Assembly (NCBI RefSeq): GCF_030145145.1
Contig: NZ_JAQYWD010000041.1
Location: forward strand, 1-61,383
Origin: Desulfobacula sp.
Lineage (GTDB): Bacteria; Desulfobacterota; Desulfobacteria; Desulfobacterales; Desulfobacteraceae
Direction: 5' to 3'
DNA: 61,383 nucleotides
Below, one piece after another: positions 702 to 18,206 of this stretch. How positions within the stretch are numbered: position 1 is the first letter of the stretch; the number at the start of each line of letters is the position of its first letter. The position numbers and the translations under genes were made by a program. Below the pieces are notes generated by a model that saw nothing but the letters and a program-made list of their open reading frames with translations, was not told the DNA's origin and did not search any database.

Positions 702-2291
702 ATGACTTTTAAAAACATTGAAATTCAACCTTGGCAATCCCACTTCACTCTGCCTGACCAGTTTAACATGGAGACCCTGCTCCTTGAGCGCCATATAGAT
801 AATGGTCGAGGGAACAACATCGCAATATATTGTGGTGATGAAGAAATCACATATCATCAACTTGGGGAACTCACCAACAAAGCTGGAAACGGCATGACTA
901 AATTGGGACTCAAGCCGCACCAAAGAGTTATATTATTACTACATGACAGCCCAACGTTTTTTTCCACCTTTTTGGGAGTTATGAAAGTGGGTGCCGTACC
1001 GGTGCCCATCAACGTCATGGCAACATCTGAAGATTTAGCCTATTTCATCAATGACAGCAAAGCAGCATTTGTTGTAGTGGAGCAGGAACTTCTGAACAAA
1101 CTCGAACCTATTCTTGAAGACTGCCCTGAACTTCAGAAAGTAGTGGTCAAAGGTTCGACTGCAGGTCATACCTCATTTGAGGAAATGATTCAAATCGCCT
1201 CATCAAAATTGTCCGTCTATCCAACCAAACAAAACGATCAGTCCTACTGGCTTTACACTTCAGGCACAACCGGTCAACCCAAAGGAGTGGTCCATTTGCA
1301 CAGGGACCTTGCATACGCTGTAGAGCCCTGGGGTCACAATGTCGTTGGATTTACGCCTGAAGATACCGTGTACTGCATCTCTAGATTATTCTTTTCATAT
1401 GGGTTAAACAATGGATTATATCTTCCGCTCTACTACGGTGGATCAGTCATCCTTACCGAGGATCGTCCTCTCCCCGAAAACATAACAAAAATATTAAAGC
1501 GCTACCGGCCGACACTGTTTTTCTCAGTGCCCACCTCATACGGTCAGCTCTTGAATTATCTGGAAGAAAAAAAAATCGACCTGGACTTAAATTCCCTGCG
1601 TCATTGCATGTCCGCTGGAGAAGCCTTACCTGCTCCTTTGTATGAGAGGTGGTTAAACCGCTTCGGCATAGAAATTCTTGATGGTATAGGGTCCTCAGAG
1701 GTGGGTTGGGTATACATTGCCAATCGTCCCGGCAAGGTCAAGAAAAAAAGCTGTGGTACCCCTCTTCCAGGCTACAAGGTGGAGGTACGAGACGAAGATG
1801 GCAATAAGCTTTCAAATGGTGAGGAAGGAGAACTTTGGGTATCAAGCAACACTTTAGCTAGCTGCTATTGGAATAAACCCGACAAAACAGCGGATACGTT
1901 TCAAGATGGATGGATGAAGACTGGGGATCGGATACGTGTCGATAAGAAGGGTTACGTTTATTACGCCGGCAGAAGCGACGATGCACTCAAGGTAGGCGGT
2001 ATTTGGGTATCTCCCCTGGAGGTAGAAGAAGCTCTTCTGGAACATACGGCTGTGGCGGAATGCGCCGTGGTACCTCAAAAAGACGAAATGGGCCTGATTA
2101 AACCCAAGGCTTTTGTAAACCTTAAAAATGGATATGAACAGAATGAAGCGTTTATTGCCGAACTGAAGGCCTTTGTTAAGCAAAGACTGGCGCCATACAA
2201 ATACCCTCGCTGGGTAGAAATTGTTGAAGAAATACCCAAAACGTCAACTGGGAAGATCCAGCGTTACATGTTGCGGAAGAGGGTAGATTAA
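702..2291 (+). CDS. Acyl-CoA ligase, benzoate-CoA ligase-like
   Basis: 529-residue AMP-forming ligase that would activate a carboxylic acid to its CoA thioester with ATP. Visible motifs are the P-loop YTSGTTGQPKG (residues 185-195), the A5-type motif GIGSSEVGW, the A7 motif GWMKTGDR, the hinge GRSDDALKVGG and the catalytic Lys518 in TGKIQR. Length and the GG-W-SP-EVE start of the lid fit the benzoate-CoA ligase subfamily; the actual acid is unknown. Start chosen at ATG with AGGAGG at 689-694. It is the first gene of a cluster of FAD, Fe-S and tungsten oxidoreductases, so it probably activates the acid they produce. Its C-terminal lid is the closest relative in the window of the lid fused to the Tm-1-like protein at 16119. 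Confidence 0.88.
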   Translation: MTFKNIEIQPWQSHFTLPDQFNMETLLLERHIDNGRGNNIAIYCGDEEITYHQLGELTNKAGNGMTKLGLKPHQRVILLLHDSPTFFSTFLGVMKVGAVPVPINVMATSEDLAYFINDSKAAFVVVEQELLNKLEPILEDCPELQKVVVKGSTAGHTSFEEMIQIASSKLSVYPTKQNDQSYWLYTSGTTGQPKGVVHLHRDLAYAVEPWGHNVVGFTPEDTVYCISRLFFSYGLNNGLYLPLYYGGSVILTEDRPLPENITKILKRYRPTLFFSVPTSYGQLLNYLEEKKIDLDLNSLRHCMSAGEALPAPLYERWLNRFGIEILDGIGSSEVGWVYIANRPGKVKKKSCGTPLPGYKVEVRDEDGNKLSNGEEGELWVSSNTLASCYWNKPDKTADTFQDGWMKTGDRIRVDKKGYVYYAGRSDDALKVGGIWVSPLEVEEALLEHTAVAECAVVPQKDEMGLIKPKAFVNLKNGYEQNEAFIAELKAFVKQRLAPYKYPRWVEIVEEIPKTSTGKIQRYMLRKRVD

Positions 2292-2538: not shown

Positions 2539-4002
2539 ATGACTCTAGAACAAGAACTTAAAGCCATTGTAGGAAAAGAAAATGTCTTTGAGGTTGCTGA
2601 AGTGCTCGAAAGCTACGCTCAAGACAATAGTTTTTCTTCAGTCAAAACGCCACGGTGTGTGGTAAAACCACATAGTACGGAGGATGTTCAGAAAATTGTC
2701 AAGCTGGCAAGCGCCAACAAGACACCTCTTGTGCCGGTTAGCTCAGGAGCGCCTCATTTCAATGGTGATACTTTGCCGGAGGTGGAAGGTGCGGTTATCT
2801 TGGATATGAGCGGGATGAAGAAAATTCTCAGGATAGACCGTCGAAATCGTGTGGCCATGATCGAGCCTGGAGTCACTTTTGATGAACTGATTCCGGAGTT
2901 AAAGAAAGAGCAATTGGCTCCCTTTATGCCCTTGACGCCACGAAACACAAAATCAGTCCTCACTACGTGGCTTGAGAGGAATCCCATAACAATGCCGAAG
3001 CATCATTGGGATGGTCAAGACCCTTTGCTGTGTCTTGAGGTTGTATACGGAAATGGAGATCTTTTCCGGACCGGCTCAGCCGCAGGTCCGGGCTCAATAG
3101 AAGAACAATTAGAAGTCGGTCGCGCCCAGGTGAGACCCGGCGGTCCTTCCCAGGTAGATTATGCCAAATTAGCTCAAGGGGCTCAGGGCACTATGGGTTT
3201 GGTGACCTGGATATCGATGAAATGCAAAGTACTTCCCGATGAGAAACGCTCATTTCTGGTTGGATCAGATGATATTGTCAGACTTTATGACCTTGCGCGG
3301 AAAAGCATATACAATCGGCATGATGCTCAGTGCTTGATATTGAACCGCCTGAACTTAGCTTCCCTGATGAAAGGAACAAAAGAAGAAATAACGGCCCTTT
3401 CTCAAGAACTACCTTCGTGGATACTGGTAATTGTTCTGGAAGGCGGAGGGTTGTTCCCGGAGGATCGGGTAGCGTATCAGGAAAAGGAATTCCTGGAAGA
3501 AGCCGAAAGGTTCGACCTCAAACCGGAAGAATCTATTGCAGGTGTCACCGCCGAAGATGTTGAAAATGTATTGGGAAAATCATCCGGACAAGACTACTGG
3601 AAACTTAGATACAAAGGGGGATGTCAGGATATATTCTTCATAACGACACTAAAACAAACTGCTGGTTTCGTTGAAAAAGTGAAAGAGCTGGCAGGGGCTT
3701 ACCAATATTCAAACGAGGATATTGGTGTATACATTCAGCCGGCCTTTCAAGGCGTCAACTGCCATTGTGAATTTAACCTTAACTACGATCCGGGCAATGT
3801 TGAAGAAACGGACAAGGTAAAGGCATTTTTTAAGGAGAGCAGCCGAGCCATTGCCGATATGGGGGGGTTCTTTTCCCGTCCTTATGGGCCTTGGGCGGAC
3901 ATCGCTTATGGTGCCGCTCCGGATAGTGTGGATGCCATAAAGAGACTTAAAAATATTTTTGATCCCGATGGTATTCTGAATCCAGGAAAACTGTGCGTAT
4001 AA
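2539..4002 (+). CDS. FAD-binding oxidoreductase (GlcD/VAO-type flavoprotein)
   Basis: 487 residues. The N-terminal half has the PCMH-type FAD-binding fold (PRCVVKPHSTEDVQKIVKLA, then a VPVSSGAPHFNGDT segment at the pyrophosphate-binding position), and the protein ends in the typical DPDGILNPGKL. The family oxidises hydroxy acids, alcohols or alkylphenols and passes electrons to a partner. A purine-rich RBS (GGAAGAGAGGAAGAG) precedes the ATG. It is followed after 10 bases by a CCG-domain Fe-S gene and then by a second FAD gene, giving a FAD - Fe-S - FAD order reminiscent of GlcD-GlcF-GlcE, though sequences and sizes differ. The substrate is unknown; the two FAD proteins may form one complex or act on successive steps. 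Confidence 0.85.
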   Translation: MTLEQELKAIVGKENVFEVAEVLESYAQDNSFSSVKTPRCVVKPHSTEDVQKIVKLASANKTPLVPVSSGAPHFNGDTLPEVEGAVILDMSGMKKILRIDRRNRVAMIEPGVTFDELIPELKKEQLAPFMPLTPRNTKSVLTTWLERNPITMPKHHWDGQDPLLCLEVVYGNGDLFRTGSAAGPGSIEEQLEVGRAQVRPGGPSQVDYAKLAQGAQGTMGLVTWISMKCKVLPDEKRSFLVGSDDIVRLYDLARKSIYNRHDAQCLILNRLNLASLMKGTKEEITALSQELPSWILVIVLEGGGLFPEDRVAYQEKEFLEEAERFDLKPEESIAGVTAEDVENVLGKSSGQDYWKLRYKGGCQDIFFITTLKQTAGFVEKVKELAGAYQYSNEDIGVYIQPAFQGVNCHCEFNLNYDPGNVEETDKVKAFFKESSRAIADMGGFFSRPYGPWADIAYGAAPDSVDAIKRLKNIFDPDGILNPGKLCV

Positions 4003-4012
4003 GGAGAATGAA

Positions 4013-5290
4013 ATGAGCTTAGAAGTATATGAACGTGATATGACTCGCTGCAGCAGGTGTTCCTATTGCAAATTTGTGCCCCATGTAAAATGGAAAAATT
4101 ATGAAACTGCTGCGGTTTGTCCAAGTATCAGCCGATATCACTTTCACAGTTGGTCGGCCGGGGGGAAAATGATTACCGGTCTGGCGCTTCTTAGGGGTCG
4201 GATTGAGTATTCGGATACTTTGATGGACATTGTTTATCAATGCTGTATGGACGGTGCCTGTGATGTTTCCTGCAAAAACCAGCGGGATCTGGAGCCTCTG
4301 GAAATGATGCTTTCGTTGCGGGCAAAAATGGTCGAGGATGGTCAGCTTCATCCTGCTCATATGTTTGCAATTGACGGTCTGAAAAAAGAAGACAATATGT
4401 TGCAGCAGAAAAAGGCGGATCGTGGCAGATGGGCTGAAGGACTGGACGTCAAGGACCTGACAAAAGAAAAGGCCGACGTTTTATTTCACGCCGGATGCCG
4501 GCTTAGTTTCGACGAAGCGCTTTGGGATATTTCCCGAGGGGCCATCAAGATTCTCAAAAAAGCGGGTGTTGATGTGGGCATAATGGGAAAAGACGAGGCT
4601 TGTTGCGGCGGCCGGGCCTATGAAATGGGTTATCAGGGAGAACTCACCAAATATGCTGAGCATAACCTGGACGTCTGGAAAAACGCAGGAGTCAAAACTG
4701 TTGTAACCTCCTGCGCTGAATGTTACCAGGCGTTTAAGGTTCTTTACGATAAGATCGGCAAAAAGCCTACCGTAAAAATTCTTCACATCACCGAATTTAT
4801 CGAACAATTGATCGAAGAAGGCAAGTTGAAGCTTGACAATGAGGTTCCAATGACAGTGACCTATCATGATCCCTGTCATCTTGGCAGGTTGGCTGAACCT
4901 TGGATCCACTGGGAAGGTGAAGAGAAAAAGGTTATGGGTCAGATGATTGTTCATGATCCACCTAAGACATATAGACGAGGCGCCAATGGCGTGTATGACG
5001 CACCCAGGAACGTTCTGAAAAGCATTCCGGGTCTTAAATTGGTAGAGATGGATAGAATCAGGGAATACGCATGGTGTTGCGGAGCTGGCGGCGGAGTGAT
5101 AGACGCTTACCCTGATTTCGCACAATGGACAGCGGCAGAAAGATTGAAGGAAGCTGAAAACACAGGAGCGGATGCTATCGTAACTGCGTGCTCATGGTGC
5201 GAGAGGAATTTTCTCGACACCGTTAAAGAAAACGGAAATTCCATCCAGGTCTTAGACATTATCCAGCTTGTTCAAAAAGCAATGGTATAA
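4013..5290 (+). CDS. Fe-S oxidoreductase with two CCG domains
   Basis: 425 residues. An N-terminal cluster-binding motif CSRCSYC (residues 13-19) with a following CP, then CMDGACDVSC, fit [4Fe-4S] ferredoxin-type ligation. Two CCG-type cysteine-rich domains follow: HAGCRLS with EACCGGRAYEMG and SCAECY, then YHDPCHLGR with WCCGAGGG and ACSWCERN. This layout is shared by GlcF, HdrD and related electron-transfer subunits. RBS AAGGAG; AUG 10 bases after the preceding stop and 9 bases before the next gene, so one transcript is likely. Inferred role: accept electrons from the flanking flavoproteins and pass them to ETF or a membrane quinone pool. Confidence 0.87.
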   Translation: MSLEVYERDMTRCSRCSYCKFVPHVKWKNYETAAVCPSISRYHFHSWSAGGKMITGLALLRGRIEYSDTLMDIVYQCCMDGACDVSCKNQRDLEPLEMMLSLRAKMVEDGQLHPAHMFAIDGLKKEDNMLQQKKADRGRWAEGLDVKDLTKEKADVLFHAGCRLSFDEALWDISRGAIKILKKAGVDVGIMGKDEACCGGRAYEMGYQGELTKYAEHNLDVWKNAGVKTVVTSCAECYQAFKVLYDKIGKKPTVKILHITEFIEQLIEEGKLKLDNEVPMTVTYHDPCHLGRLAEPWIHWEGEEKKVMGQMIVHDPPKTYRRGANGVYDAPRNVLKSIPGLKLVEMDRIREYAWCCGAGGGVIDAYPDFAQWTAAERLKEAENTGADAIVTACSWCERNFLDTVKENGNSIQVLDIIQLVQKAMV

Positions 5291-5299
5291 GGAGAGAAT

Positions 5300-6865
5300 A
5301 TGAGTATTTCAAAAGAAGCTTACCGTGCACTGGAAGGTATTGTTGGGCCTGAATATATTTCCCAGGATCCTGTCATCATGGACAGTTATTGTTTTGTGTG
5401 GGGAAATGAAGTCATGTTCGGGGACAAATTTGCTGCAAGACCCATTGCAGTTATCATCCCAGGATCTGCCGAGGAGGTTCAAGAGGTTGTAAAGGTCTGC
5501 AATCAATATAATGTTAAATTCAGACCGCATGCAACGGGCTGGGAGGCGACTGCTTTGTCGGCGGCCGAAGGATTTCTTCCCATAGATTTGAGAAGATTAA
5601 ACAAGATCATAGAAATTAATGAAGATAGCATGTACGGCGTTGTTGAGCCTTATGTTTCGATAGGCGCGCTAACCATCGAGGCAACAAAAAAAGGAATGCG
5701 ATGCTACTCCCTGGGCGCTGGCCCCAGTGCATCCGTGGTTGCCAGCTCAACGTCTCATTGCGGAATTGGAAACGCATCCATCTTTACAGGGGTCGGCGGC
5801 CGTTCCGTTTTAGGCGTCGAATGGATCTTGCCGGATGGGAAATTATTAAGGCTGGGTTCTCTCGGTGCCGGCTGCGGGTGGTTCTCTGGAGACGGACCCG
5901 GTCCAAGCCTTCGTGGCGCCATGAGGGGCGTTGTCGGAGCCAATGGGGGCTTGGGTGTCATCACCAAGGTGGCTGTAAAGCTTACCCCATGGTATGGGCC
6001 GAAAGTATTGGAAACATCCAATAATCCTCCCTCATATAGCAATGATCTACCGGAAAACTTTAAGGTATTTACAATGACATTCCCCACTCGGGAGGATGTT
6101 GTGGATGCCCTTTATTTAATCAGTGAGGAAGAAATATCACATGTTTGCAGCAGGCGGGGACCCTTTGCCGTCGCGTCCGGTCTGGTGGGTTCAAATGAAG
6201 AAATGTGGGAGTTATGGAAAAAAGGGATTTACCAGAAAAAATGCGCTAATTCAATCGTTCTGATCATGGACTCTACCTCCCCTGAATGCTTAGAGTACAG
6301 AGTAAAGGTGTTAAACAAGATTGTGGAAAAAACCAATGGCGCCTACTTTACCGAAGATTCTCACAGAGATGGGGGCAAATACGCTCATGGCTTGTTGGGG
6401 ATCGGCGGAAACAAAGGTGCTTTCCGGGCAGGCGGTACTTTCAATGAAGGACCGGGAGCAGAAGAGACCATGGACTCTCTCCTGAATTTGCAAGTGATGG
6501 CCAATGAGTTAAAGGAAGAATTCGTAAAGACCGGTAAATTGCTTGACGACGGAGACCCCATTTGGTTACAGCCCTTCGAACAAGGCCAGATCGGCGGACA
6601 TGGAGAAATTCCCGTACGGTTTGACCCCTGTGACAAAGAGGCGGTTAAAGTTGCCAGGGAACATTACGAAGAAGCCTGTAAAAGAGAACTTGCTTCTAAA
6701 CTCGGTATCGGACCGCTTGAAGGTGGAATTGGGTTTAATGACGAAATTAACGATACCGCAGGACCGGAAACAATGAATTATCACCTTTGGATGAAAAAAA
6801 TAAAAAAGGCGCTGGATCCCAATCTGGTATCAGAAGCCTCTTTTTATACAAATCCCAAGGAATAA
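5300..6865 (+). CDS. FAD-linked oxidase of the vanillyl-alcohol oxidase/4-cresol dehydrogenase type
   Basis: 521 residues. The FAD_binding_4 region includes ARPIAVIIPGSAEEVQEVVK and an RPHATGWEATA loop; a GGRSVLGVEWILPDGKLLRLG segment and the sequence RGVVGANGGLGVITKVAVKL are typical of VAO-superfamily flavoproteins. The length (about 520) matches 4-cresol dehydrogenase and vanillyl-alcohol oxidase better than GlcD, but I cannot see an FAD-linking His/Tyr with certainty. RBS AAGGAG just before ATG, 9 bases after the CCG gene. In context it could oxidise a benzylic or similar alcohol/methyl group to the aldehyde handled by the aldehyde oxidoreductase downstream. Substrate assignment is inference. 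Confidence 0.82.
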   Translation: MSISKEAYRALEGIVGPEYISQDPVIMDSYCFVWGNEVMFGDKFAARPIAVIIPGSAEEVQEVVKVCNQYNVKFRPHATGWEATALSAAEGFLPIDLRRLNKIIEINEDSMYGVVEPYVSIGALTIEATKKGMRCYSLGAGPSASVVASSTSHCGIGNASIFTGVGGRSVLGVEWILPDGKLLRLGSLGAGCGWFSGDGPGPSLRGAMRGVVGANGGLGVITKVAVKLTPWYGPKVLETSNNPPSYSNDLPENFKVFTMTFPTREDVVDALYLISEEEISHVCSRRGPFAVASGLVGSNEEMWELWKKGIYQKKCANSIVLIMDSTSPECLEYRVKVLNKIVEKTNGAYFTEDSHRDGGKYAHGLLGIGGNKGAFRAGGTFNEGPGAEETMDSLLNLQVMANELKEEFVKTGKLLDDGDPIWLQPFEQGQIGGHGEIPVRFDPCDKEAVKVAREHYEEACKRELASKLGIGPLEGGIGFNDEINDTAGPETMNYHLWMKKIKKALDPNLVSEASFYTNPKE

Positions 6866-7497: not shown

Positions 7498-8091
7498 ATG
7501 ATTGAAATGAATACGATTGAAAAAACACTTTTTAACGAAGCAAAACCATATTTATCAATAAGAAGAAACGAAATACACACACAAAACGTAATCGACTTTG
7601 CATTTAAGCTGTTACAGGAAGAAAAAGGCGACAGGGACATTGTGATACCTGCAGCCATTTTGCACGACGTTGGTTGGATTAAAATCTCCGAGGACAACAT
7701 AAGAAAAGCAATGGGCCCCAACGGTGATGAGAGCATCGTTAGGGTCCATGAAGAGGAAGGCGTCAAAATAGCAGAGGGCATACTTGAAAAACATTTAAAC
7801 TCTCATCGAAAAATATCAGAAATCCTCGAAATTATATCCGGTCACGACACTAGAGAAGATGCACTATCCATGAATGATAAAATCGTTAAAGATGCCGACA
7901 AACTTTCACGGTACGATGTGTCTTTTTTAAATTTAGTGGATTGGTGTGATTTTACAACCCAGGAACTGTTTCACCAACTTGAATCAAATATATCGAAATG
8001 GTTTTTTCTACCTTTGTCTAAAAAAATAGCGAACGAAGAATTGATCAAAAGGAGGAAAGAAACACTTAAATACTGTGAAGTGAGCGGTTAA
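7498..8091 (+). CDS. HD-domain phosphohydrolase-like protein
   Basis: 197 residues. Metal-binding residues of an HD domain are visible: His27, His56-Asp57 in AAILHDVGW, His84, His116 and the Asp pair in KDADKLSRYD near 132-134. Such proteins hydrolyse phosphate esters of nucleotides or small metabolites; this sequence gives no substrate. RBS is weak (GAGGCG). It lies inside the catabolic cluster, bracketed by hairpin elements, and may be an insertion into it or a housekeeping repair enzyme. Confidence 0.78.
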   Translation: MIEMNTIEKTLFNEAKPYLSIRRNEIHTQNVIDFAFKLLQEEKGDRDIVIPAAILHDVGWIKISEDNIRKAMGPNGDESIVRVHEEEGVKIAEGILEKHLNSHRKISEILEIISGHDTREDALSMNDKIVKDADKLSRYDVSFLNLVDWCDFTTQELFHQLESNISKWFFLPLSKKIANEELIKRRKETLKYCEVSG

Positions 8092-9233: not shown

Positions 9234-11069
9234 ATGGGTTTATGTGGTTGGAAGGGAAAAATTTTAAGAGTCGACCTGACCCGGGGAAAAATCGGTGAAG
9301 AGGATCTTTCCGATGATTTGATGCTAAACTATATCGGAGGCCGAATTGCCGGAAATAAGATACTGCTTGACGAGATGGACCCCATGGTCGACCCTTTGGG
9401 CCCTGATAATAAACTCATTTTTGCAACAGGACCGCTCACGGGCACGGGAGTGCCCGCGGGGGGAAGATTTATCGCAGTTTCCAAATCCCCCCTGACAGGA
9501 GGAATCGCTAACCCTTGCTGCGGAGGATATTTCGGCGCAAATCTAAAGTATGCAGGCTACGACTTCCTGATCATCGAGGGCAAATCCCCTGAACCGGCAT
9601 ATTTGAGTATCGTCAACGATCAGGTAACCATCAAACCTGCGGAGCATCTTTGGGGAAAATGGGCCACCGAGACGGAAAACGCTATTCGGGCTGAATTAAG
9701 CGATTCAAAGGATGCCTGGGGAAGAAATACGCCGAGCGTGCTCCTGATCGGACCGGCAGGGGAAAATCTCGTGAGCTTCGCCTCTATCATGTCCGATGGG
9801 GGCAGAGCGCTGGGCCGTTCGGGGCTGGGGGCAGTCATGGGATCCAAAAATTTGAAAGCAATTGGGGTAAAAGGAACCGGAGAAGTTCGAATTGCCGATG
9901 TAAAGGGATTTCAAAAAGCAATAATTGATTTTATCGGCGAGGCCAGGGAGACGGGTCAGCTTGAAAACCGGTCTAAATGGGGCACATGGGATCTGATCGG
10001 GCGTGCCCAGAAAACAGGAACCTTATGTTCCCTGAACTTTAAGGAGGGGGATTTTGATGGATTCAAACCCTACGAGGATCCGGCTACAATTCGAGACAAA
10101 ATTCGTGTCAGGGACGAAGCGTGCTTCGGGTGTCCATTTCGATGCGGGAAGCGTAGTACGATATTCGATCCTGCCTACCCTGGAACGGCAAAGGGACCGG
10201 AGCATGAAACCTTGGGGCTTTTCGGTTCCAATTGCGGCGTTGCCGATCTGGATGAAATATGGAAAGCCAATTATTTGTGCAATGAGTTAGGAATGGACAC
10301 CATTACCGGGGGGGCCACAATATCCTGCGCCATGGAACTTTATGAACTTGGATATTTAACCGGAAAAACAATCGGTTATCCATTAAACTTCGGTAATGGA
10401 ACAGCGATACTGGAACTTCTAAAAAAAACCGCTTTCAGGAAGGATTTCGGGGACCAGCTGGCGGATGGGGGGTACGCTGTGGCGGAACGGGCCGGGCATC
10501 CCGAGCTTTTTATGGGGGTGAAAAAACAAGGTTTCCCTGCCTGGCACCCCCAGGGACGTTTTCCAGGTCTTGAGGTCATCGGCCTTCAGTATGCAACCAG
10601 CCCAGTCGGTGCCAGTCATACAAAATCGGTGATGACATTTCACTCCCAGTCCGACGATCTTACTCCTCTGGTCGCTTGGACCAAACATTATCAGGACTAT
10701 GTGTCCATCGTGGACGCCGGGGTATTGTGCTGGATTATCTATCACGGCCCCATGTGGGAAGACAAGGCCTCCTCATGGCTTGAGCTGGTGACCGGGGTCT
10801 CCTACTCCCAGGACAAGCTTATGATGATTGGCGAAAAAAACTGGAACATGGAACGGCTGTTTAACCTTGCCGCCGGATTAAGCTCAGAGGATGACGGGCT
10901 GCCACAGAGGATGCTGACCGAAGCTCCCCCCAGGGGAGGACGCGTCGTGGATCTACCTCCCTTGCTGGAAGAATATCACAGAATTCGGGGTTGGGATAAT
11001 AAAGGCGTTCCTAAACCGGAAAAGCTTGAAGAACTAGGGTTAAGCGAATGGAAGGTAAAGGTGCAATGA
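9234..11069 (+). CDS. Tungsten-containing aldehyde ferredoxin oxidoreductase family protein
   Basis: 611 residues, the usual size of the family. The N-terminus (GLCGWKGKILRVDLT), the GPLTGTGVPAGGRF loop, the cluster-binding motif CFGCPFRC near residue 297 and the DAGVLC cysteine near residue 495 identify it. The enzyme oxidises aldehydes to acids with a tungstopterin and a [4Fe-4S] cluster. RBS AAGGGGGAG. The stop overlaps the start of its ferredoxin partner (ATGA). Class II benzoyl-CoA reductase BamB is in the same superfamily, but no other bam gene is present, so aldehyde oxidation is the better reading. In this cluster it would make the acid for the ligase at 702. Confidence 0.9.
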   Translation: MGLCGWKGKILRVDLTRGKIGEEDLSDDLMLNYIGGRIAGNKILLDEMDPMVDPLGPDNKLIFATGPLTGTGVPAGGRFIAVSKSPLTGGIANPCCGGYFGANLKYAGYDFLIIEGKSPEPAYLSIVNDQVTIKPAEHLWGKWATETENAIRAELSDSKDAWGRNTPSVLLIGPAGENLVSFASIMSDGGRALGRSGLGAVMGSKNLKAIGVKGTGEVRIADVKGFQKAIIDFIGEARETGQLENRSKWGTWDLIGRAQKTGTLCSLNFKEGDFDGFKPYEDPATIRDKIRVRDEACFGCPFRCGKRSTIFDPAYPGTAKGPEHETLGLFGSNCGVADLDEIWKANYLCNELGMDTITGGATISCAMELYELGYLTGKTIGYPLNFGNGTAILELLKKTAFRKDFGDQLADGGYAVAERAGHPELFMGVKKQGFPAWHPQGRFPGLEVIGLQYATSPVGASHTKSVMTFHSQSDDLTPLVAWTKHYQDYVSIVDAGVLCWIIYHGPMWEDKASSWLELVTGVSYSQDKLMMIGEKNWNMERLFNLAAGLSSEDDGLPQRMLTEAPPRGGRVVDLPPLLEEYHRIRGWDNKGVPKPEKLEELGLSEWKVKVQ

Positions 11070-11431
11070 AAATCAATATAGATCATACCAAATGCAGTGG
11101 GTGCAAGCTCTGTGAGGTTGCGTGTTCCTTAAACCATACTGGCGCCGTGAATGTTCAGAGATCTAGAATCAGGGTGTTCATCGGCGAGGAGTTCTGTCTG
11201 CCGGTCATTGCCAGGAATTATAAGGCCGTATGCGATTCAAAAGGAGATATGGTCATGTACAACGGTCATGAGGTGGACGAGTGCGTTGTGTGCAGGGCTT
11301 CCTGCCCGGTTAAATCGGTATTCAAGGAACTGGATGGGAAGACGCCGTTAAAGTGTGATTTTTGTCGTGGCGATCCACAATGTGTAAGGTGGTGCCCCAC
11401 CGGAGCGCTAACGCTGGTCGGTGGGAGATAA
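11066..11431 (+). CDS. Polyferredoxin-type Fe-S partner of the aldehyde oxidoreductase
   Basis: 121 residues with about 13 cysteines in the groups CSGCKLCEVAC, CVVCRASCP, CDFC and CVRWCP, enough for about three [4Fe-4S] clusters (HycB/AorA-like). It would carry electrons from the tungsten subunit. Start at 11066 was chosen because ATGA overlaps the upstream stop; an in-frame ATG at 11048 is an alternative adding six residues. Tight coupling to the AOR gene makes the partnership likely. Confidence 0.88.
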   Translation: MKINIDHTKCSGCKLCEVACSLNHTGAVNVQRSRIRVFIGEEFCLPVIARNYKAVCDSKGDMVMYNGHEVDECVVCRASCPVKSVFKELDGKTPLKCDFCRGDPQCVRWCPTGALTLVGGR

Positions 11432-11594: not shown

Positions 11595-12536
11595 ATGATT
11601 AATTACAATTATCTTAGATCCTTTTATCACGTAGCAAAGAATCTCAGCTTTACCTTAGCAGCCGAAGATCTTTTTGTTACTCAACCCGCTATAACAAGGC
11701 AGGTAAAGGTTCTTGAGAATCTTTGGGAGATGAAACTTTTTGAAAATTCCCGGGGGAAGATTTACCTTACCGAGGAAGGAAAATACCTTTTTGATTATGT
11801 AAAAAAGGTGTTTGATTATGAAAAAGAGATCGAAATGGCGGTAGAAGATATTAGAGGATTAAAACAAGGTGTCCTTCGCTTATCCACTACAACATATGTG
11901 CCGAACTTTATGGCATTTCTAACAAATAAGTTTAAAAAAAAATATCCCCATATAAAAGTCCAGTTAAATCACATTGGATCAGAGGACAGCATCAATATGC
12001 TGCGTATGGGGCATAGTGAAATTGCAATAATGCCAATGGTTAAGGAGTACACTGATGTCGATTTTATTCATCTGGATAATCCGGAAGTCATACTTGTAGT
12101 GAATCCTGATCATCCGTTGGCCTTAAAAGGTGTCGCTTCATTGGAGGATCTATCCAGGGAGCCACTTATCTTGAAGGAACCGGGCTCTGGAACGGCGAAA
12201 GTTGTTGCTGACTTCTTCAAGCAACATCACATCACTCCTAATATTTTTTTTGAACTTGGTGATACCGAATCCATCAAACGGATGGTTCAGAGAGGGCATG
12301 GCGTTTCCCTTTTAGTGGAATATACAGTATCCCGAGAGATTTCAGAAGGAAAATTGGTTTCAATCCCCATAGAGGAACATAAGATTTTTTTACCTATCCA
12401 TATCGTATATTTAAAAGATCGTCACTTCTCTCTTCCTGCAATTGCCTTCCTCAATATTTTGTCAAAAGTGGCTCCAGGATCACCCCACTTTCCTCATTTG
12501 GCTTCGTCTTGGCCTAAAGATTGTCCTTTCATGTGA
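11595..12536 (+). CDS. LysR-family transcriptional regulator
   Basis: 313 residues. Residues 1-60 form the winged HTH (NYLRSFYHVAKNLSFTLAAE, then FVTQPAITRQVKVLE), and residues about 90-295 the periplasmic-binding-like inducer domain (LRLSTTTYVPNFMAFL, GSGTAKVVADFF). LysR proteins usually activate neighbouring catabolic genes when the substrate or an intermediate binds. It is co-directional with the cluster, rather than divergent, so its target promoter is not obvious. AAGGAG precedes the ATG by about 11 bases. Confidence 0.9.
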   Translation: MINYNYLRSFYHVAKNLSFTLAAEDLFVTQPAITRQVKVLENLWEMKLFENSRGKIYLTEEGKYLFDYVKKVFDYEKEIEMAVEDIRGLKQGVLRLSTTTYVPNFMAFLTNKFKKKYPHIKVQLNHIGSEDSINMLRMGHSEIAIMPMVKEYTDVDFIHLDNPEVILVVNPDHPLALKGVASLEDLSREPLILKEPGSGTAKVVADFFKQHHITPNIFFELGDTESIKRMVQRGHGVSLLVEYTVSREISEGKLVSIPIEEHKIFLPIHIVYLKDRHFSLPAIAFLNILSKVAPGSPHFPHLASSWPKDCPFM

Positions 12537-12857
12537 TTGGCAAAACCAACTAATTATTTCAGATTTTGAAGCCTTACCCAAGATTGCAATTTCCCCGGAT
12601 CTATCTATATGGTGTTGCTTTTCCTACTCCTGACCTTTTTAAACTCCTTATTTAATTTTTTCGTAATGCTACAAATAATAGTCAAACCTTTTCATTTTTA
12701 AGCATTTTTTTTTACCTATAACCCTGCCTTATTACGTCATTAAAAAAAGTCATTTGCCTAGTTTTTAATTATCTGAAATTATTCACATATTCAAATTTAA
12801 AAATATTCAAGCGATTAGGCGTTTAAATAATTGGTTCACGGATATAAGGAAAAACAA
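12537..12857. other. Intergenic stretch before the Tm-1/ETF genes
   Basis: About 320 bases, very AT-rich from 12640. It probably carries the promoter of the Tm-1-like/ETF operon. I see no clear palindrome or terminator. Confidence 0.4.
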
Positions 12858-14117
12858 ATGAAAAAAACCATTGTTATTGTTGGGACTCTGGATACTAAAG
12901 GGGATGAAGTGGATCTCCTGAGATCATTAATTAAAAAAAGAGGGCATCATGTCATCGTTATAGATACCGGCATTCTTCACGAGCCACAAATCCAAGCCGA
13001 TGTCAGCAAAAATAAAATTGCTTTGGCTGGTGGTGGGGATATCCAGAGCCTTATAGAAAAAGGTGATGAGTCCTATGCCCAAAAAATTATGGCAGCAGGT
13101 TTAAAAAAGACGATAAGTTCCATGTTAAAAGGAAAAAAGATACAAGGGATATTGGCCATCGGCGGTGGTCAAGGCTCGACAATAGCCGCACCAACACTTA
13201 AATCCTTACCTTTGGGCTTACCCAAAATGCTGATTTCTACCAAGATTTCCCAGGCTGGCGTATGGCCTTACATCGGCGCCAAAGATGTAATGATCGTTCC
13301 GCCTGTGGCAGATCTGGCAGGAATCAATCGGCTAACACGACAGGTTCTCAACAACGCGGCTGGGGCCATGGTTGGCATGGTAGAAACTCCTCCAGTCAAG
13401 GATCTGAACAGACCGCTTGTTGTTTTAAGTATGAATGGGACTGTAACCACATGCGGATTGACGATTAAAAACATTCTTGAATCTGAGGGTTATGCGGTAT
13501 TGGTTTTTCACAGCATCGGAACCGGTGGGTTTGCTCTTGAGGAATATGTAAAATCATATGACGTGCAGGGGGTCATTGAACTGGCAGTGAATGAAATTGT
13601 CAACGACCTTACCGGTGGTCTTGCCTCTGCGGGTCCTGATCGTCTCACAGCGGCTGGAAAACGTGGCATTCCACAGGTTATTGTCCCGGGGAGCGCAGAC
13701 TTCATTAATTTTTTGGGTCCTGAAACCATACCTCCCAGATATAGCGGCAGAAGGATTCATAGCCATAACCCCCAGGCCTTTTTGGTCAGAACCAATGAGA
13801 AGGAAAATACACTGCTCGGCAAAACAATAGCAGACAAGTTAAATCAATCTCAGGGCCCGGTCGTGCTTCTCTGGCCTGAGAAAGGCCTTTCCACTCTTGA
13901 CAGTCAGGGAAAGCCCTTCCGGGATACAAAGGCGGATGAAGCACTTCTGGAAGCCCTAAAAACGCATCTTAATGGACGTACAGATATAATAGAATACGAC
14001 GTCCATATAAATGACAATGACTTTGCTCAGGCAGTGGTTGCCGAGTTCAAAAATTTAGTGGCAGATAACAATGTACCAAGGACAGTGAGTATAAAAACCG
14101 ATCATTGCGTTGTTTAA
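12858..14117 (+). CDS. Tm-1-like ATP-binding protein (UPF0261)
   Basis: 419 residues, the normal length of the UPF0261 family. Family hallmarks are the start IVIVGTLDTKGDEVDLL, the glycine-rich ILAIGGGQGSTIAAPTLKSLP and PKMLISTKIS segments, and LSMNGTVTTCG. The N-terminal part is the ATP-binding domain also found in plant Tm-1 proteins; enzymatic activity of the bacterial family is not established. ATG at 12858 follows AAGGA; the more distal start at 12831 lacks an RBS. It lies upstream of etfA-etfB, with a second, highly diverged relative downstream of them. The TIM-barrel partner often found with this family is absent from the window. Confidence 0.82.
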   Translation: MKKTIVIVGTLDTKGDEVDLLRSLIKKRGHHVIVIDTGILHEPQIQADVSKNKIALAGGGDIQSLIEKGDESYAQKIMAAGLKKTISSMLKGKKIQGILAIGGGQGSTIAAPTLKSLPLGLPKMLISTKISQAGVWPYIGAKDVMIVPPVADLAGINRLTRQVLNNAAGAMVGMVETPPVKDLNRPLVVLSMNGTVTTCGLTIKNILESEGYAVLVFHSIGTGGFALEEYVKSYDVQGVIELAVNEIVNDLTGGLASAGPDRLTAAGKRGIPQVIVPGSADFINFLGPETIPPRYSGRRIHSHNPQAFLVRTNEKENTLLGKTIADKLNQSQGPVVLLWPEKGLSTLDSQGKPFRDTKADEALLEALKTHLNGRTDIIEYDVHINDNDFAQAVVAEFKNLVADNNVPRTVSIKTDHCVV

Positions 14118-14215
14118 TTTGTCTGTCTCTTAAATAATAGGGGCAATATAAAAAAGCAATGAGCGCAAATGATCACGCCGAAAACGTTTTTATTACCAAG
14201 TATAGGAGGAAGCGT

Positions 14216-15217
14216 ATGAGCAAAAAATCCAATAAGGATGTATGGATTTATGGGGAAGTAACCGATGGAGAGTTAGATGTAAAGACTCTTGAATTATTGA
14301 CCATGGGAAAAAAACTGGCCATAGACTTGGATGAAGAGCTTGCAATCGTCTTAATGGGCGACAACCTTGATCCCGTCGCCCAGGATCTTGCCGGTTTTGG
14401 CCCTGATAAAATTTATAAGGTCGAGAGTCCTTTATTAAATCGGTTTAATGGCGAGATATGGGTCGATGTTCTTGAAAAACTCTTCAAGGAACTAAAGCCA
14501 AGGGTTTTTCTGGCGTCCCAGTCTTTTGTAGGAATAGAGGTTGCACCAAGATTGGCATTTCGTTTGGATTGTGAAATCATAACCGATTGTATCGATCTGA
14601 AGATAGATCCGGATGACGGCAGCCTCATTAAAACCAAAGCGATATACGGTGGCAACGTCGTTGCTACCTTCAAACAAAAAGGCGCGACGCAGATGGCGAC
14701 GGTCAGGGAAAAAGCGAACAAGCTGGCCGAGAGAGGGGCAGAACTGGGTAAAATTATAGACATCAAACCGGATATCGATGAATCCATTGTTAAAATTCAA
14801 TCCCTGGAGGTCGTTCGGGAAGACGTCGTAGCACTCAATAAAGCGGATGTCATCATCTCCGGCGGCAGAGGCATAGGGGGTATTGAAGGATTCGAAGAGT
14901 TAGCAACTTTGGTGCCTCTATTTAAAGAATCTTTTGCAAACGTTATTATAGGTGCGAGCAGGCCTGCCATAGATTCCGGATGGATTTCATCCAACCGCCA
15001 GATCGGCTTGACCGGTGAGATGGTTGCACCGGATTTCTATATCGCCGTCGGTATTTCCGGCGCCATCCAACACATCGCCGGAATGTCCAAGAGCAAGACT
15101 GTCGTTGCCATCAATAAAGACGAAGATAGCAACATCTTTAATTTAGCCGATTACGGTGTAGTTGGTGATTACAGGGAAATTCTACCAGCCTTTAAAAAGA
15201 AATGGGGGGGAGTATAA
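14216..15217 (+). CDS. etfA: Electron transfer flavoprotein, alpha subunit
   Basis: 333 residues. The C-terminal FAD domain is canonical: GGRGIGGIEGF, IIGASRPAIDSGWI, RQIGLTGEMVAP, VGISGAIQHIAGM and INKDEDSNIFNLADYGVVGD. With EtfB it forms a soluble flavoprotein dimer moving electrons between dehydrogenases and a quinone or Fe-S acceptor. ATG at 14216 follows AGGAGG; an upstream in-frame ATG at 14159 would add 19 residues without an RBS. Its stop overlaps the etfB start (TAATG). The alpha gene coming first is the reverse of the common beta-alpha order. Likely acceptor for the FAD/CCG dehydrogenases of this cluster. Confidence 0.93.
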   Translation: MSKKSNKDVWIYGEVTDGELDVKTLELLTMGKKLAIDLDEELAIVLMGDNLDPVAQDLAGFGPDKIYKVESPLLNRFNGEIWVDVLEKLFKELKPRVFLASQSFVGIEVAPRLAFRLDCEIITDCIDLKIDPDDGSLIKTKAIYGGNVVATFKQKGATQMATVREKANKLAERGAELGKIIDIKPDIDESIVKIQSLEVVREDVVALNKADVIISGGRGIGGIEGFEELATLVPLFKESFANVIIGASRPAIDSGWISSNRQIGLTGEMVAPDFYIAVGISGAIQHIAGMSKSKTVVAINKDEDSNIFNLADYGVVGDYREILPAFKKKWGGV

Positions 15218-16020
15218 TGAATCCAATAAAAATTATCGTTTGCGCAAAACAGGTCCCAGATCCTGAAGCCCCTGCTAATTTGGTTGAAATTGATTCTGAT
15301 ACAAAAATGGTTAAAATAAAGGGTCTTCCTCCTGGAATCAACAGCTATGACCAGAACGCCATTGAGGCGGCCCTGAAAATTAAAGAAAAAACGGGGGCAA
15401 AGGTTACGGTCGTAAGTGTGGGATCAAAACTTTCCCAGAGCATTTTACGAAAAGCCCTGGCTGTAGGCGTTGACGACCTTGTTCTTGTGGATGATTCCGA
15501 TTTCAAAGATCTCGACAGCCGTTCCACTGCCGATGTTCTTTCCAAGGCCATAGAAAAAATCGGAGAATACGATCTGGTCTTTACCGGAAGGCAAGCCAGT
15601 GACTGGGATTCAGGGCAGACGGGCTTAATCCTTGGAGAAATGTTGGGGATTCCCATCGTTAATCTGGTCGGCGGTGTGACGATTGAAGACAGAAGCGTTT
15701 CTGTCAAAAGAATGATACCTGGCGGATATGAGCGGGTTAAAGGCGACATGCCGGTATTGCTTACAATCAGTAACGAGGTTGGAGAGATGCGCGTTCCGTC
15801 GTTAAGAACGGTTCTTGAGTCTCGTAAGCGCCCCATAGAAGTCTGGCAGTCTGACGACCTTAAAATTGATACCCAGGAATTAAACCCTTTTGAAATTCTG
15901 GCTCTGACTTCACCGCCAAACATGGAAAGGGAGTGCAGTTTCATAGAAGGAGACTCACCTGAGGAAAGAGGCGAAAATTTGGCAATGACTTTAAAAAAAG
16001 CATTCTTAAAAAATAATTGA
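15217..16020 (+). CDS. etfB: Electron transfer flavoprotein, beta subunit
   Basis: 267 residues. The N-terminus IIVCAKQVPDPEAP, the central SYDQNAIEAALKIKE and VFTGRQASDWDSGQTG are EtfB signatures. The start overlaps the EtfA stop by one base (TAATG), indicating translational coupling. Whether this ETF bifurcates electrons cannot be decided from sequence by eye. It is followed by a hairpin and then the Tm-1/ligase-lid fusion gene. Confidence 0.93.
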   Translation: MNPIKIIVCAKQVPDPEAPANLVEIDSDTKMVKIKGLPPGINSYDQNAIEAALKIKEKTGAKVTVVSVGSKLSQSILRKALAVGVDDLVLVDDSDFKDLDSRSTADVLSKAIEKIGEYDLVFTGRQASDWDSGQTGLILGEMLGIPIVNLVGGVTIEDRSVSVKRMIPGGYERVKGDMPVLLTISNEVGEMRVPSLRTVLESRKRPIEVWQSDDLKIDTQELNPFEILALTSPPNMERECSFIEGDSPEERGENLAMTLKKAFLKNN

Positions 16021-16118: not shown

Positions 16119-17579
16119 ATGGGTGATTTTATCGTTATGGGGGCGTGGAATACAAAAAAGCAGGAACTTGATTACATCTGCAAGGAACTTAAAAAAAGAT
16201 CACATAAAGCCATTAAACTTGACCTAGGCACGAACATACAATCTCATGATAGAGGGAAAGTCATTGATGAAACGATTGTAAAATGCAGGGAACAGCTAAA
16301 AGAAATTGTCACAAATAGACCGATCTCAGGAGCGATCTCAATCGGCGGCGGAACAGGTCTCTATATGGGGCTGAGTCTGATGGGGGATCTCCCCTTGTTT
16401 CTGCCCAAGGTTATGATATCAACAATGATCGCCAATAGTCTCCACGTATTTGAATCCTATAAAGACATCGTGTACCTTCAAACCCCCTTTGACTTTGCTG
16501 GCGCCTTGAACCCGGCCGTAAAGGGAGTCCTTGAGGTGGGCACCGGCATTTTGGCTGCAATGCACTACAAAATGCCGGAATTTGATCGACCCGCTATTGC
16601 GATAACGAGCGTCGGCGCTTGTTTTGGTTATGTTGAAGCAGCAGATGAATTCTGGACAGATAAAGACTTCTATCTCGTGCCTTTCCATGGTACCGGAGAG
16701 GGCACGATGGCAATGGCGGAAATGATCCGTGAGGGCTACTTCGCAGGTGTCCTGGATGTGAGTCCCCACGATATTATGGATCATATCGGAGGTGGCGATT
16801 ATGGAAACATCACCGAAGACAGGGTTGCGTCATATTTTTCCATGGACGTTCCAACGATCATCTGTCCCGGCGGATTCGAGTCCATTACCGGGACTAATAA
16901 ACGTTATGACCCGGACGCTCCTTTTTTTAAAGGAAGAAAGCACGTCAATCATGACTTTAGATGGGGCGCCATGTCCAAAAAAGAGGAAGTCATAAAAGCA
17001 ACGGAATGGATTGGCAATATTTACAAAAAGACAAATCCAAAAAACACAAAGTTTTTAATTCCTTTAGATGCATGGTCTTATTTTGGCAAAAAAGGTGGAG
17101 ATTACTATGATCCCGAAATGAACCCGGCATTCATAAACTGTCTAAAGACATTTGTAAAAGAAGACTCAATTGTCGAAGTTGATATGGACATTAATGACCC
17201 CGCCTTTGGGACGCTGGCTTCTGAACATTTATATGAATTAATTAAAAATCAACCCGGTGGGTTGTGGCTGTCCCCATTGGTGATGGAAAATGTTTTGCTG
17301 GAGCATTCACATGTTAGTGAGGCAGTAGTCGTTACAGAGGGGAACGAGTCTGGTCTGGATAAACCGGTCGCTTTTGTTGTACTTAAAGATGGCCATAAGC
17401 CCACACCAGATTTGGAAAAAGAAGTATCAGACTTTGTACGGAGTAGAACAAATCACGCCAAATACCCTCAAAGAATCAATTTTGTAGATGAATTGCCGAG
17501 AACAGTCACCGGTAAGGTTCAGCGCTATAAGTTGCGGGATAAACTGACGCATGAAACGGAAAGCCAGGCAGTGAAATAA
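16119..17579 (+). CDS. Tm-1-like (UPF0261) domain fused to an acyl-CoA ligase C-terminal lid domain
   Basis: 486 residues. Residues 1 to about 375 are Tm-1-like: IVMGAWNTKKQELDYICKEL at the start, AISIGGGTGLYMGLSLMGDL and LPKVMISTMIA. From residue 378 the protein becomes an AMP-ligase lid domain: GGLWLSPLVMENVLLEH, AFVVLKDG, KYP and the catalytic-lysine motif TGKVQRYKLR (Lys466). Hand alignment to the lid of the ligase at 702 gives 45 identities in 96 ungapped positions. The ligase N-domain, including the P-loop, is absent, and the junction falls at the hinge. No frameshift or stop is visible, and the RBS is good (ACAGGAGGCG). Compared with the paralogue at 12858 the Tm-1 part is shortened near the N-terminus. 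Function unknown; possibly it uses its own ATP site in an acyl- or aminoacyl-type activation. Confidence 0.85.
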   Translation: MGDFIVMGAWNTKKQELDYICKELKKRSHKAIKLDLGTNIQSHDRGKVIDETIVKCREQLKEIVTNRPISGAISIGGGTGLYMGLSLMGDLPLFLPKVMISTMIANSLHVFESYKDIVYLQTPFDFAGALNPAVKGVLEVGTGILAAMHYKMPEFDRPAIAITSVGACFGYVEAADEFWTDKDFYLVPFHGTGEGTMAMAEMIREGYFAGVLDVSPHDIMDHIGGGDYGNITEDRVASYFSMDVPTIICPGGFESITGTNKRYDPDAPFFKGRKHVNHDFRWGAMSKKEEVIKATEWIGNIYKKTNPKNTKFLIPLDAWSYFGKKGGDYYDPEMNPAFINCLKTFVKEDSIVEVDMDINDPAFGTLASEHLYELIKNQPGGLWLSPLVMENVLLEHSHVSEAVVVTEGNESGLDKPVAFVVLKDGHKPTPDLEKEVSDFVRSRTNHAKYPQRINFVDELPRTVTGKVQRYKLRDKLTHETESQAVK

Positions 17580-17656: not shown

Positions 17657-17858
17657 AATTCTGCATCAGAAAAAAATAATGGTTAGCATTTTCAAAAATA
17701 ACCGAATAAAAAAAATTTGAACGTACTTCACAACCGGTTTTCAAATTTGTTTCTATCCTTATTTTTTAAGCGCAACCATTGAAATGGTCTTATTTATAAT
17801 AAATTTTATACGTGTTGATATAAAAACAACAGGTTCCAATAGAGTAGGAGGAAAGGTT

Positions 17859-18206
17859 ATGAAAAAAGATTGTGAAATGTCACTTCAGGGATTACCAGTG
17901 GCAGGGGGAATTGCAGAGGGATTTGCCGCCGTCATTCAAAGACCTGCGGATCTCGGGATAGTCGACCGGAATACCATTCTGGTTTGCCCCTACCTATCCC
18001 CTGTTTATTTAACTGTATTTTCACTGATCCAGGGCATCGTTACTGAGAAAGGTGGTGTCATGTCCATCGCAGCTTCTATTGCAAGAGAGAATAACCTGCC
18101 TGCTGTGGCAGGGATTCTACATGGCGTGAATATTATTAATGAAGGGGACCTCCTCCGGATAAATGGAGCAGACGGGATAGTTCAAATCATTTCAAGGGCA
18201 GCCTAA
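17859..18206 (+). CDS. Stand-alone PEP-utilising mobile (swivelling) domain lacking the catalytic His
   Basis: 115 residues, essentially just the phosphohistidine swivelling domain of PEP synthase, PPDK and phenylphosphate synthase. Visible are GLPVAGGIAEGFAAVI, GIVTEKGG, IARENNLPAVAG and GDLLRINGADGIVQI. In active members the core reads GG-x-x-SH-AA; here it reads GGVMSIAASIARE, so the phosphorylated His is Ile. It therefore should not carry phosphate by the known mechanism. ATG at 17859 follows GTAGGAGG. It is separated from the fusion gene by 279 bases and a hairpin, so it may have its own promoter. A binding or regulatory role is possible; function is unknown. Confidence 0.78.
   Translation: MKKDCEMSLQGLPVAGGIAEGFAAVIQRPADLGIVDRNTILVCPYLSPVYLTVFSLIQGIVTEKGGVMSIAASIARENNLPAVAGILHGVNIINEGDLLRINGADGIVQIISRAA

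Follow-up and report, generated by a model that had tools for sequence, protein, structure and literature searches.

A UPF0261 (Tm-1-like) protein joined to the lid of a benzoate-CoA-ligase-type enzyme in Desulfobacula sp.

What does the lid of an acyl-CoA ligase do on a protein that has no ligase core? The question is raised by a gene in the stretch of DNA analysed here (61,383 nucleotides from Desulfobacula sp., referred to below as the window), which consists of a single open frame on the forward strand (16119–17579, 486 codons, no internal stop). Three Pfam domains were found in its product: UPF0261 (residues 40–149, 70.8 bits, cut-off 27), UPF0261_C (residues 157–374, 131.6 bits, cut-off 27) and AMP-binding_C (residues 389–466, 63.7 bits, cut-off 24.5). 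The protein lies above both Pfam gathering scores of the UPF0261 family (PF06792 and PF23189), and no AMP-binding core (PF00501) was detected in it at E ≤ 0.001. The first-pass annotation had described an uninterrupted 486-residue gene joining a UPF0261/Tm-1 domain to the lid of a benzoate-CoA-type ligase whose N-domain is absent, and this description is borne out. The same holds for its hand count of 45 identities in 96 positions with the lid of the ligase at 702; the computed value is 46.4% over 97 positions, that is, 45 identities. The latter ligase (702–2291, forward strand) is a complete enzyme of the benzoate-CoA-ligase family (TIGR02262, 556 bits, cut-off 375; Pfam).

The join was located by comparison with the sister ligase on contig C72 of the same genome. 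From base 1133 of the fusion gene onward (window 17251, halfway through motif A8), the two genes abruptly become similar in DNA, and the similarity extends almost to the end of the C72 ligase. The UPF0261/Tm-1-like part, of a subtype with a short N-domain, was accordingly assigned to 16119–17252 (forward strand, residues 1–378; from Pfam, the orthologue ends and the AF2 model), and the AMP-binding_C lid of the benzoate-CoA-ligase type to 17253–17579 (forward strand, residues 379–486 plus stop). The join site coincides with the natural end of a UPF0261 protein, both unfused orthologues terminating where the lid begins. The lid had been said to start at the hinge; a C-terminal ligase lid it is, but it starts just past the hinge, and the GRDDDMLK stretch with the hinge Asp (in GRDDD) is missing, as is the first half of A8, so that the protein has neither the hinge Asp nor the whole A8 of acyl-CoA ligases. 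The A10 lysine is kept (K466 in TVTGKVQR), in agreement with the retained TGK motif reported before. Because both unfused orthologues end at the join, the fusion reads, on sequence comparison, as a full-length UPF0261 protein followed by a ligase stump that begins in the middle of motif A8.

The UPF0261 half has unfused orthologues in two genomes (G350 and G466, 50% and 47% identity, 376 and 374 amino acids). A search of genome contigs with the UPF0261 part, which needs exact short peptide patterns and may omit records near the genome of the window, returned the same two contigs, from the Syntrophaceae MAGs UBA2188 and L.E.D.11_1, both unfused. The fusion's UPF0261 half and these two orthologues are without approximately 25 residues of the N-domain that are present in the other aligned UPF0261 proteins. 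Against the NCBIfam model PRK02399.1-2 (cut-off 335 bits), the fusion scored 184.1 and the unfused orthologue in L050 219.1; both being under the cut-off, they are placed in a divergent UPF0261 branch. In plasmids, 797 matching records were found, all below 60% identity. Among the best 10 of the 797, six were annotated, each with a Tm-1-like gene (the Tm-1 family is named ATP-binding in this annotation) and four of them also touching a gene of the phosphoenolpyruvate hydrolase family; the matches of the best 10 extend to query residues 398–414, a short way into the lid, which is taken as chance extension. No fusion to a ligase domain is mentioned in the titles and abstract openings of the papers found with the term UPF0261, the term "Tm-1-like ATP-binding" was not found in the literature searched, and the term Tm-1 was not found in the Desulfatiglans papers searched for it.

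Further copies of the fusion were sought in 97 relatives, 86 genomes of the family, 395 of the phylum, 389 of the order and 389 of the class, and no second one was found; each count includes the genome of the window, the sets overlap, the order and class sets gave identical matches, and in the phylum, order and class searches the best four candidates per genome were scored among the matches listed. Likewise, none was found in 17 genomes of the order of G350 or in five of its genus. This lack of a second fusion in the genome sets searched speaks against a conserved architecture. Absence from all close relatives had been named beforehand as an observation that would refute the first-pass proposal, and the fusion is indeed missing from 25 other genomes of the genus and 85 others of the family, a pattern more in keeping with an accident confined to one lineage than with an enzyme design that has been conserved.

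With a single assembly (89 contigs) as its source and no counterpart in the relatives searched, the gene could also be an assembly or sequencing artefact that joins two genes. This is highly improbable. The join is in frame and lies at a natural protein end, no other lid copy in the genome exceeds 73.6% DNA identity, no orphan core occurs among the 29 ligase frames described below, and the changes in the lid are specific to the fusion copy. An assembly error is judged unlikely from the sequence because of the position of the join, the distance of the nearest lid copy (73.6% at the DNA level) and the absence of an orphan core among those 29 frames. The fusion is real, rare and largely explained.

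The origin of the lid was traced within the genome (5.66 Mb, 89 contigs). Its closest counterpart belongs to the complete benzoate-CoA-ligase-type enzyme on contig C72 (69% protein and 73.6% DNA identity). This DNA identity and the GC3 values (0.42 vs 0.53) rule out that the lid is a recent copy of the C72 ligase. For the C72 enzyme itself, a search of 193 genomes (own genome included) gave a single close relative, in G044 (79%), followed by matches at 46%. With TIGR02262 (cut-off 375.25), the fusion gave 88 bits, below the cut-off and from the lid only. When the genome was searched with the sister ligase, 39 stretches were obtained, one of them the fusion's own lid (frame of 496 codons); the other ligase stretches all lie in open frames of at least 503 codons, with four matches in fragmented frames and two that read through one stop. 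A profile built from 27 ligase lids found a lid in all 29 of the own-genome ligase frames that were checked, and no orphan core; the 29 leave out five weaker or partial matches on C89, C28, C23, C15 and C66.

These counts bear on the two functions proposed by the first-pass annotation, namely a lid that completes another ligase in trans and a new ATP-dependent acyl-activating arrangement, in which K466 would serve the nucleotide site of the UPF0261 domain. The A10 motif is intact with K466, the UPF0261 part is related to Tm-1 (annotated as ATP-binding) and the lid to ATP-using ligases, all of which would suit such an enzyme. Against a trans-acting lid stands the finding that every one of the 29 checked ligase frames already has a lid of its own, five further frames being outside this check. 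Against the acyl-activating arrangement stand the missing hinge Asp and half-motif A8, the replacement of the A8 Glu (E388V) and of the Tyr of the CoA pocket (Y447A), and the concentration of the fusion's own changes at these places. Taken together, the two proposals are improbable.

The changes in the lid were counted against the 27 ligases. The fusion departs at 11 of the 42 columns in which at least 85% of these agree, two of the 11 being at the join, four common to both sisters (C72 and G044) and five found in the fusion only (E388V at the A8 Glu, A403V, A445N, Y447A and R451Q). The number of departures alone is not unusual: among the full ligases, three divergent ones show 10, 10 and 14 departures in the same columns, which in two of these ligases include E388 and in one Y447. 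As to distribution, nine of the 14 changes unique to the fusion fall in 15 sites (386–390 and 445–454, the A8 Glu and the CoA loop) as against 0/10 and 0/12 in the sisters (Fisher P 2e-5, an optimistic value, the 15 sites having been picked after the changes were seen). Counted from the majority state, 9/22 changes fall in these sites vs 0/7 and 0/19 in the sisters; this count takes the C72 codon where all three sequences differ, a choice of which the count of unique changes is free. Position 447, which from a spacing of 19 residues to the A10 Lys we take to be that of Tyr525 of MacsMa, carries Ala (Y447A), and on this spacing the aromatic residue of the CoA pocket (Phe473 in CBAL, Tyr525 in MacsMa) is missing from the fusion. 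In a study of MacsMa, the residue of greatest importance for the CoA step is reported to be Tyr525, which takes the place of Phe473 in CBAL (PMC10455477).

At the same time, the lid is not plainly decaying, as judged from the pairwise dN/dS values, the ratio of replacement to silent changes and the hydrophobic core. Between the lid of the fusion and that of the sister ligase, dN/dS is 0.16–0.31. Unique changes (N:S) amount to 14:11 in the fusion and to 10:9 and 12:13 in the sisters, with no difference among the three lineages. Of 26 hydrophobic core columns, 24 are still hydrophobic and the other two are common to one sister ligase (neutral simulation, P = 0.085). Conservation at the sites unique to the fusion is higher than at those unique to the sisters (P = 0.009), but does not exceed that of random sites (P = 0.31). 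Much of the lid branch may be older than the fusion, so that these measures need not reflect selection on the lid at present. In the AF2 model, the lid superimposes on the lids of benzoate-CoA ligases (6m2o, 4eat, 4rm3) at 1.4–1.8 Å over 94–97 columns, with 42–44% identity, and the join region (residues 371–390) has a mean pLDDT of 70–78; this, the better of two models, came from an alignment in which the ends of the UPF0261 rows were misplaced against the lids, and the second came from an alignment without lid rows and has a lid of low confidence. Lacking both a core on which to close and the hinge Asp, and with losses in A8 and the CoA pocket, the lid would still fold and probably no longer works as a ligase lid.

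A preserved fold could mean that the lid has been kept for a new use in the UPF0261 protein, such as dimer contacts, docking to a ligase or to ETF, or shielding of the phenol/ATP site. This is a possible reading, though a doubtful one. The kept lid fold and hydrophobic core, the match of the modelled lid to benzoate-CoA ligase lids at 1.4–1.8 Å and the low dN/dS speak for it, and the gathering of changes on the old functional face would be expected from repurposing too. The fusion occurs only once, however, both orthologues manage without the lid, and nothing at the join, which is less certain in the model (pLDDT 70–78), points to a fixed arrangement.

The reading that we prefer, and hold to be somewhat more probable than its competitors together, is a UPF0261 protein of the phenol-kinase type that gained a ligase stump by in-frame deletion and whose lid has no ligase function. 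The deletion would have removed the stop codon of the UPF0261 gene and the first four fifths of the neighbouring ligase gene, and the last 100 codons or so of this gene, of the benzoate-CoA-ligase type, would thereby have become the tail of the UPF0261 protein. The donor gene would have lain directly downstream of UPF0261. The working part would be the UPF0261 domain, which would take up ATP together with a phenolic compound and phosphorylate the latter, acting as an aryl-phosphate-forming kinase; the aryl-phosphate would feed an anaerobic aromatic pathway, and the lid would persist as a folded tail unable to serve thioester formation.

Gene neighbourhoods were compared at 40 UPF0261 loci (20 from the search of relatives and 20 from the phylum search, taken from among the better matches and not at random), neighbouring genes being matched by BLAST at E ≤ 1e-10 and ligases at E ≤ 1e-20. 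In the fetched stretches, PPDK_N was found at 26 loci, a PpsA-like gene at 25, UbiD at 19, an acyl-CoA ligase at 16, CBS at nine and HD at seven; within 3 kb of the UPF0261 gene, the numbers were 10, 15, 15, 10, nine and six, respectively. Nine of the 40 loci had none of the twelve gene types sought and no ligase. UPF0261 genes in Desulfobacterota often stand in operons of the phenylphosphate-synthase type, some of them directly beside acyl-CoA ligase genes. At nine of the 40 loci, a co-oriented ligase gene lies upstream of UPF0261, the matched stretches being 29–96 bases apart. In one case the frames of the ligase are broken, and eight of these loci come from the family of the window and represent one operon type, which means that they do not count as independent. 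At the loci L127, L129 and L131–L137, UPF0261 adjoins ligase genes and UbiD, PPDK_N, CBS or HD is close by, apparently as parts of the anaerobic phenol operon of Desulfobacterota.

Within the genome itself, contig C71 carries a ligase gene followed on the same strand, after 98 bases, by a UPF0261 gene that is cut by the contig end, with a PpsA-like gene further upstream. At a paralogous locus on contig C6, the order is PPDK_N, UPF0261, ligase, PpsA-like, UbiD, the ligase lying 166 bases downstream of UPF0261. The neighbourhood needed for the deletion therefore exists, although the C6 ligase belongs to another subfamily, far from the donor type of the lid (26%). The order UPF0261, lid and swivel domain in the window is collinear with UPF0261, ligase and PpsA-like gene on C6, which is suggestive only. 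It counts against the deletion that the supposed ancestral gene pair, a UPF0261 gene of the short subtype with a ligase of the donor type, was not found in the genome sets searched.

In the window, the fusion stands at the end of a run of co-oriented genes that is preceded by the gene of a LysR-type regulator (11595–12536, forward strand; Pfam). The run begins with a UPF0261 paralogue (12858–14117, forward strand; 428 amino acids from an upstream TTG at 12831), which, as noted in the first-pass annotation, has no lid by Pfam. It continues, after a gap of 41 bases, with the alpha subunit of an electron transfer flavoprotein (etfA, 14159–15217, forward strand; Pfam) and, in overlap with it, the beta subunit (etfB, electron transfer flavoprotein domain, 15202–16020, forward strand; Pfam), which ends 98 bases before the fusion. 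Downstream follows a solo PEP-utilizers (swivel) domain (17784–18206, forward strand; Pfam) in which, by sequence comparison, Ile stands in place of the phospho-His (SIAA for SHAA). In 97 genomes (own genome included), its next best matches reach at most 70 bits (self 289) and lie in longer frames, the exception being a 155-codon frame at a contig start in G094. The two-part kinase HpeHI is reported to lose its activity when the conserved His is replaced (PMC12167813). One PpsA-like protein on C6 is likewise without the phospho-His, and the loss of the His alone is therefore no proof of decay. With the lid and the swivel domain, two stumps from the same type of operon lie side by side, which fits a reductive change of the locus. 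Against the preferred reading, window ORFs of at least 90 codons gave no match (E ≤ 1e-12) to the PPDK_N or UbiD genes found at the loci used for comparison.

Other genes of the window were compared as well. An HD-domain gene (7498–8091, forward strand) has homologues (43% and 41%) in the HD genes that accompany the two unfused UPF0261 orthologues. Such genes stand by both short UPF0261 genes of the Syntrophaceae (L050:10723–11322 and L051:9082–9711) and in the wider cluster of the fusion, and the HD gene and the short UPF0261 gene are possibly a two-gene module. Three genes at 2539–6865 encode, by Pfam, FAD_binding_4 with FAD-oxidase_C, a CCG iron-sulphur protein and FAD_binding_4 only. In subunit make-up they are like BzS1_12970/80/90, the abundant "Magic" flavoprotein described from anaerobic degraders of benzene (PMC13416013), of which syntenic homologues of lower identity exist in non-benzene degraders (PMC13416013). 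At 9234–11431, an aldehyde ferredoxin oxidoreductase gene is followed by that of a 4Fe-4S protein; a similar pair, with 29% and 40% identity to it, lies near the sister ligase in G044.

The kinase part of the preferred reading was approached through the fold. When the model of the fusion was submitted to Foldseek, the best fold match was the N-terminal region of tomato Tm-1 (PDB 3wrw and 3wry; E 8.8e-28 for 3wrw), and 9mpy, a UPF0261 protein with acetovanillone bound, was matched with E 5.6e-25 and a TM-score of 0.51–0.59. A profile of UPF0261 proteins recognised the protein of 9mpy, Saro_1862, with E 1.4e-83. The predicted structure thus has its fold in common with a phenol-binding UPF0261 protein, as a phenol kinase of this family should. 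MarK of N. aromaticivorans is reported to be a single-component kinase that starts acetovanillone catabolism (PMC13101465). Saro_1862 is probably MarK, and by analogy with Saro_1862/MarK we infer a kinase role for the UPF0261 domain.

Alternatively, the UPF0261 part might be no kinase but a phenol-binding or regulatory partner of a phenylphosphate-synthase-type kinase, the lid still being a relic. The genes of two-part kinases near UPF0261 (PPDK_N at 26/40 and PpsA-like at 25/40 loci) would make a second kinase redundant, and tomato Tm-1 binds viral replication proteins (PMC5028733). The report of MarK as a single-component acetovanillone kinase (PMC13101465) and the binding of acetovanillone by 9mpy speak against a mere partner if both are the same protein, and we consider this alternative very unlikely.

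The fusion is probably of minor interest as an enzyme design, being lineage-specific and carrying a lid without much of its old active site, and more is to be gained from the gene context of UPF0261 than from the lid. Pfam still labels UPF0261 as uncharacterised; its frequent company, in Desulfobacterota, of phenylphosphate-synthase-type kinases, UbiD and acyl-CoA ligases, together with an acetovanillone-bound member, leads to a testable role in phenol activation in anaerobic phenol degraders. The fusion further provides a clear example from nature on which to ask if a catalytic lid, once stranded, can persist as a fold after losing its job. There is a slim chance that a protein of the phenol-kinase type has recruited the lid as a moving cap or docking arm, coupling aryl-phosphate formation to an aryl-CoA ligase or handing the product over to it. 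Were this so, it would be, to our knowledge, the first demonstrated case of a ligase lid acting on a protein that is not a ligase.

Among known systems, Saro_1862 (PDB 9mpy, Novosphingobium aromaticivorans) belongs to the same two-domain UPF0261 family and to a setting of aromatic degradation; it differs from the fusion in having no lid and is approximately 20% identical. Tomato Tm-1 shares the UPF0261 fold, but it is a plant protein joined to a TIM-barrel (TBST) domain (PMC5028733) and has no ligase lid. With the benzoate-CoA ligase family (TIGR02262; 6m2o, 4eat, 4rm3), the fusion has the lid fold and the A10 motif in common, and differs in lacking the AMP-binding core, the hinge Asp, half of A8 and the CoA-pocket Tyr. 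The Syntrophaceae orthologues (UBA2188 and L.E.D.11_1) are alike over the whole UPF0261 part (50% and 47%) and have an adjoining HD-domain gene; they stop before the lid and have a PpsA/PpsB-like pair nearby (in UBA2188 by NCBIfam), in contrast to the solo swivel domain at the fusion. In the genus of the window, the locus in G008 has the order PPDK_N, UbiD, ligase, UPF0261, HD, CBS, and it resembles the phenol cluster of Desulfatiglans anilini, which is described as comprising genes for phenylphosphate synthase, carboxylase and 4-hydroxybenzoyl-CoA ligase (PMC6114531).
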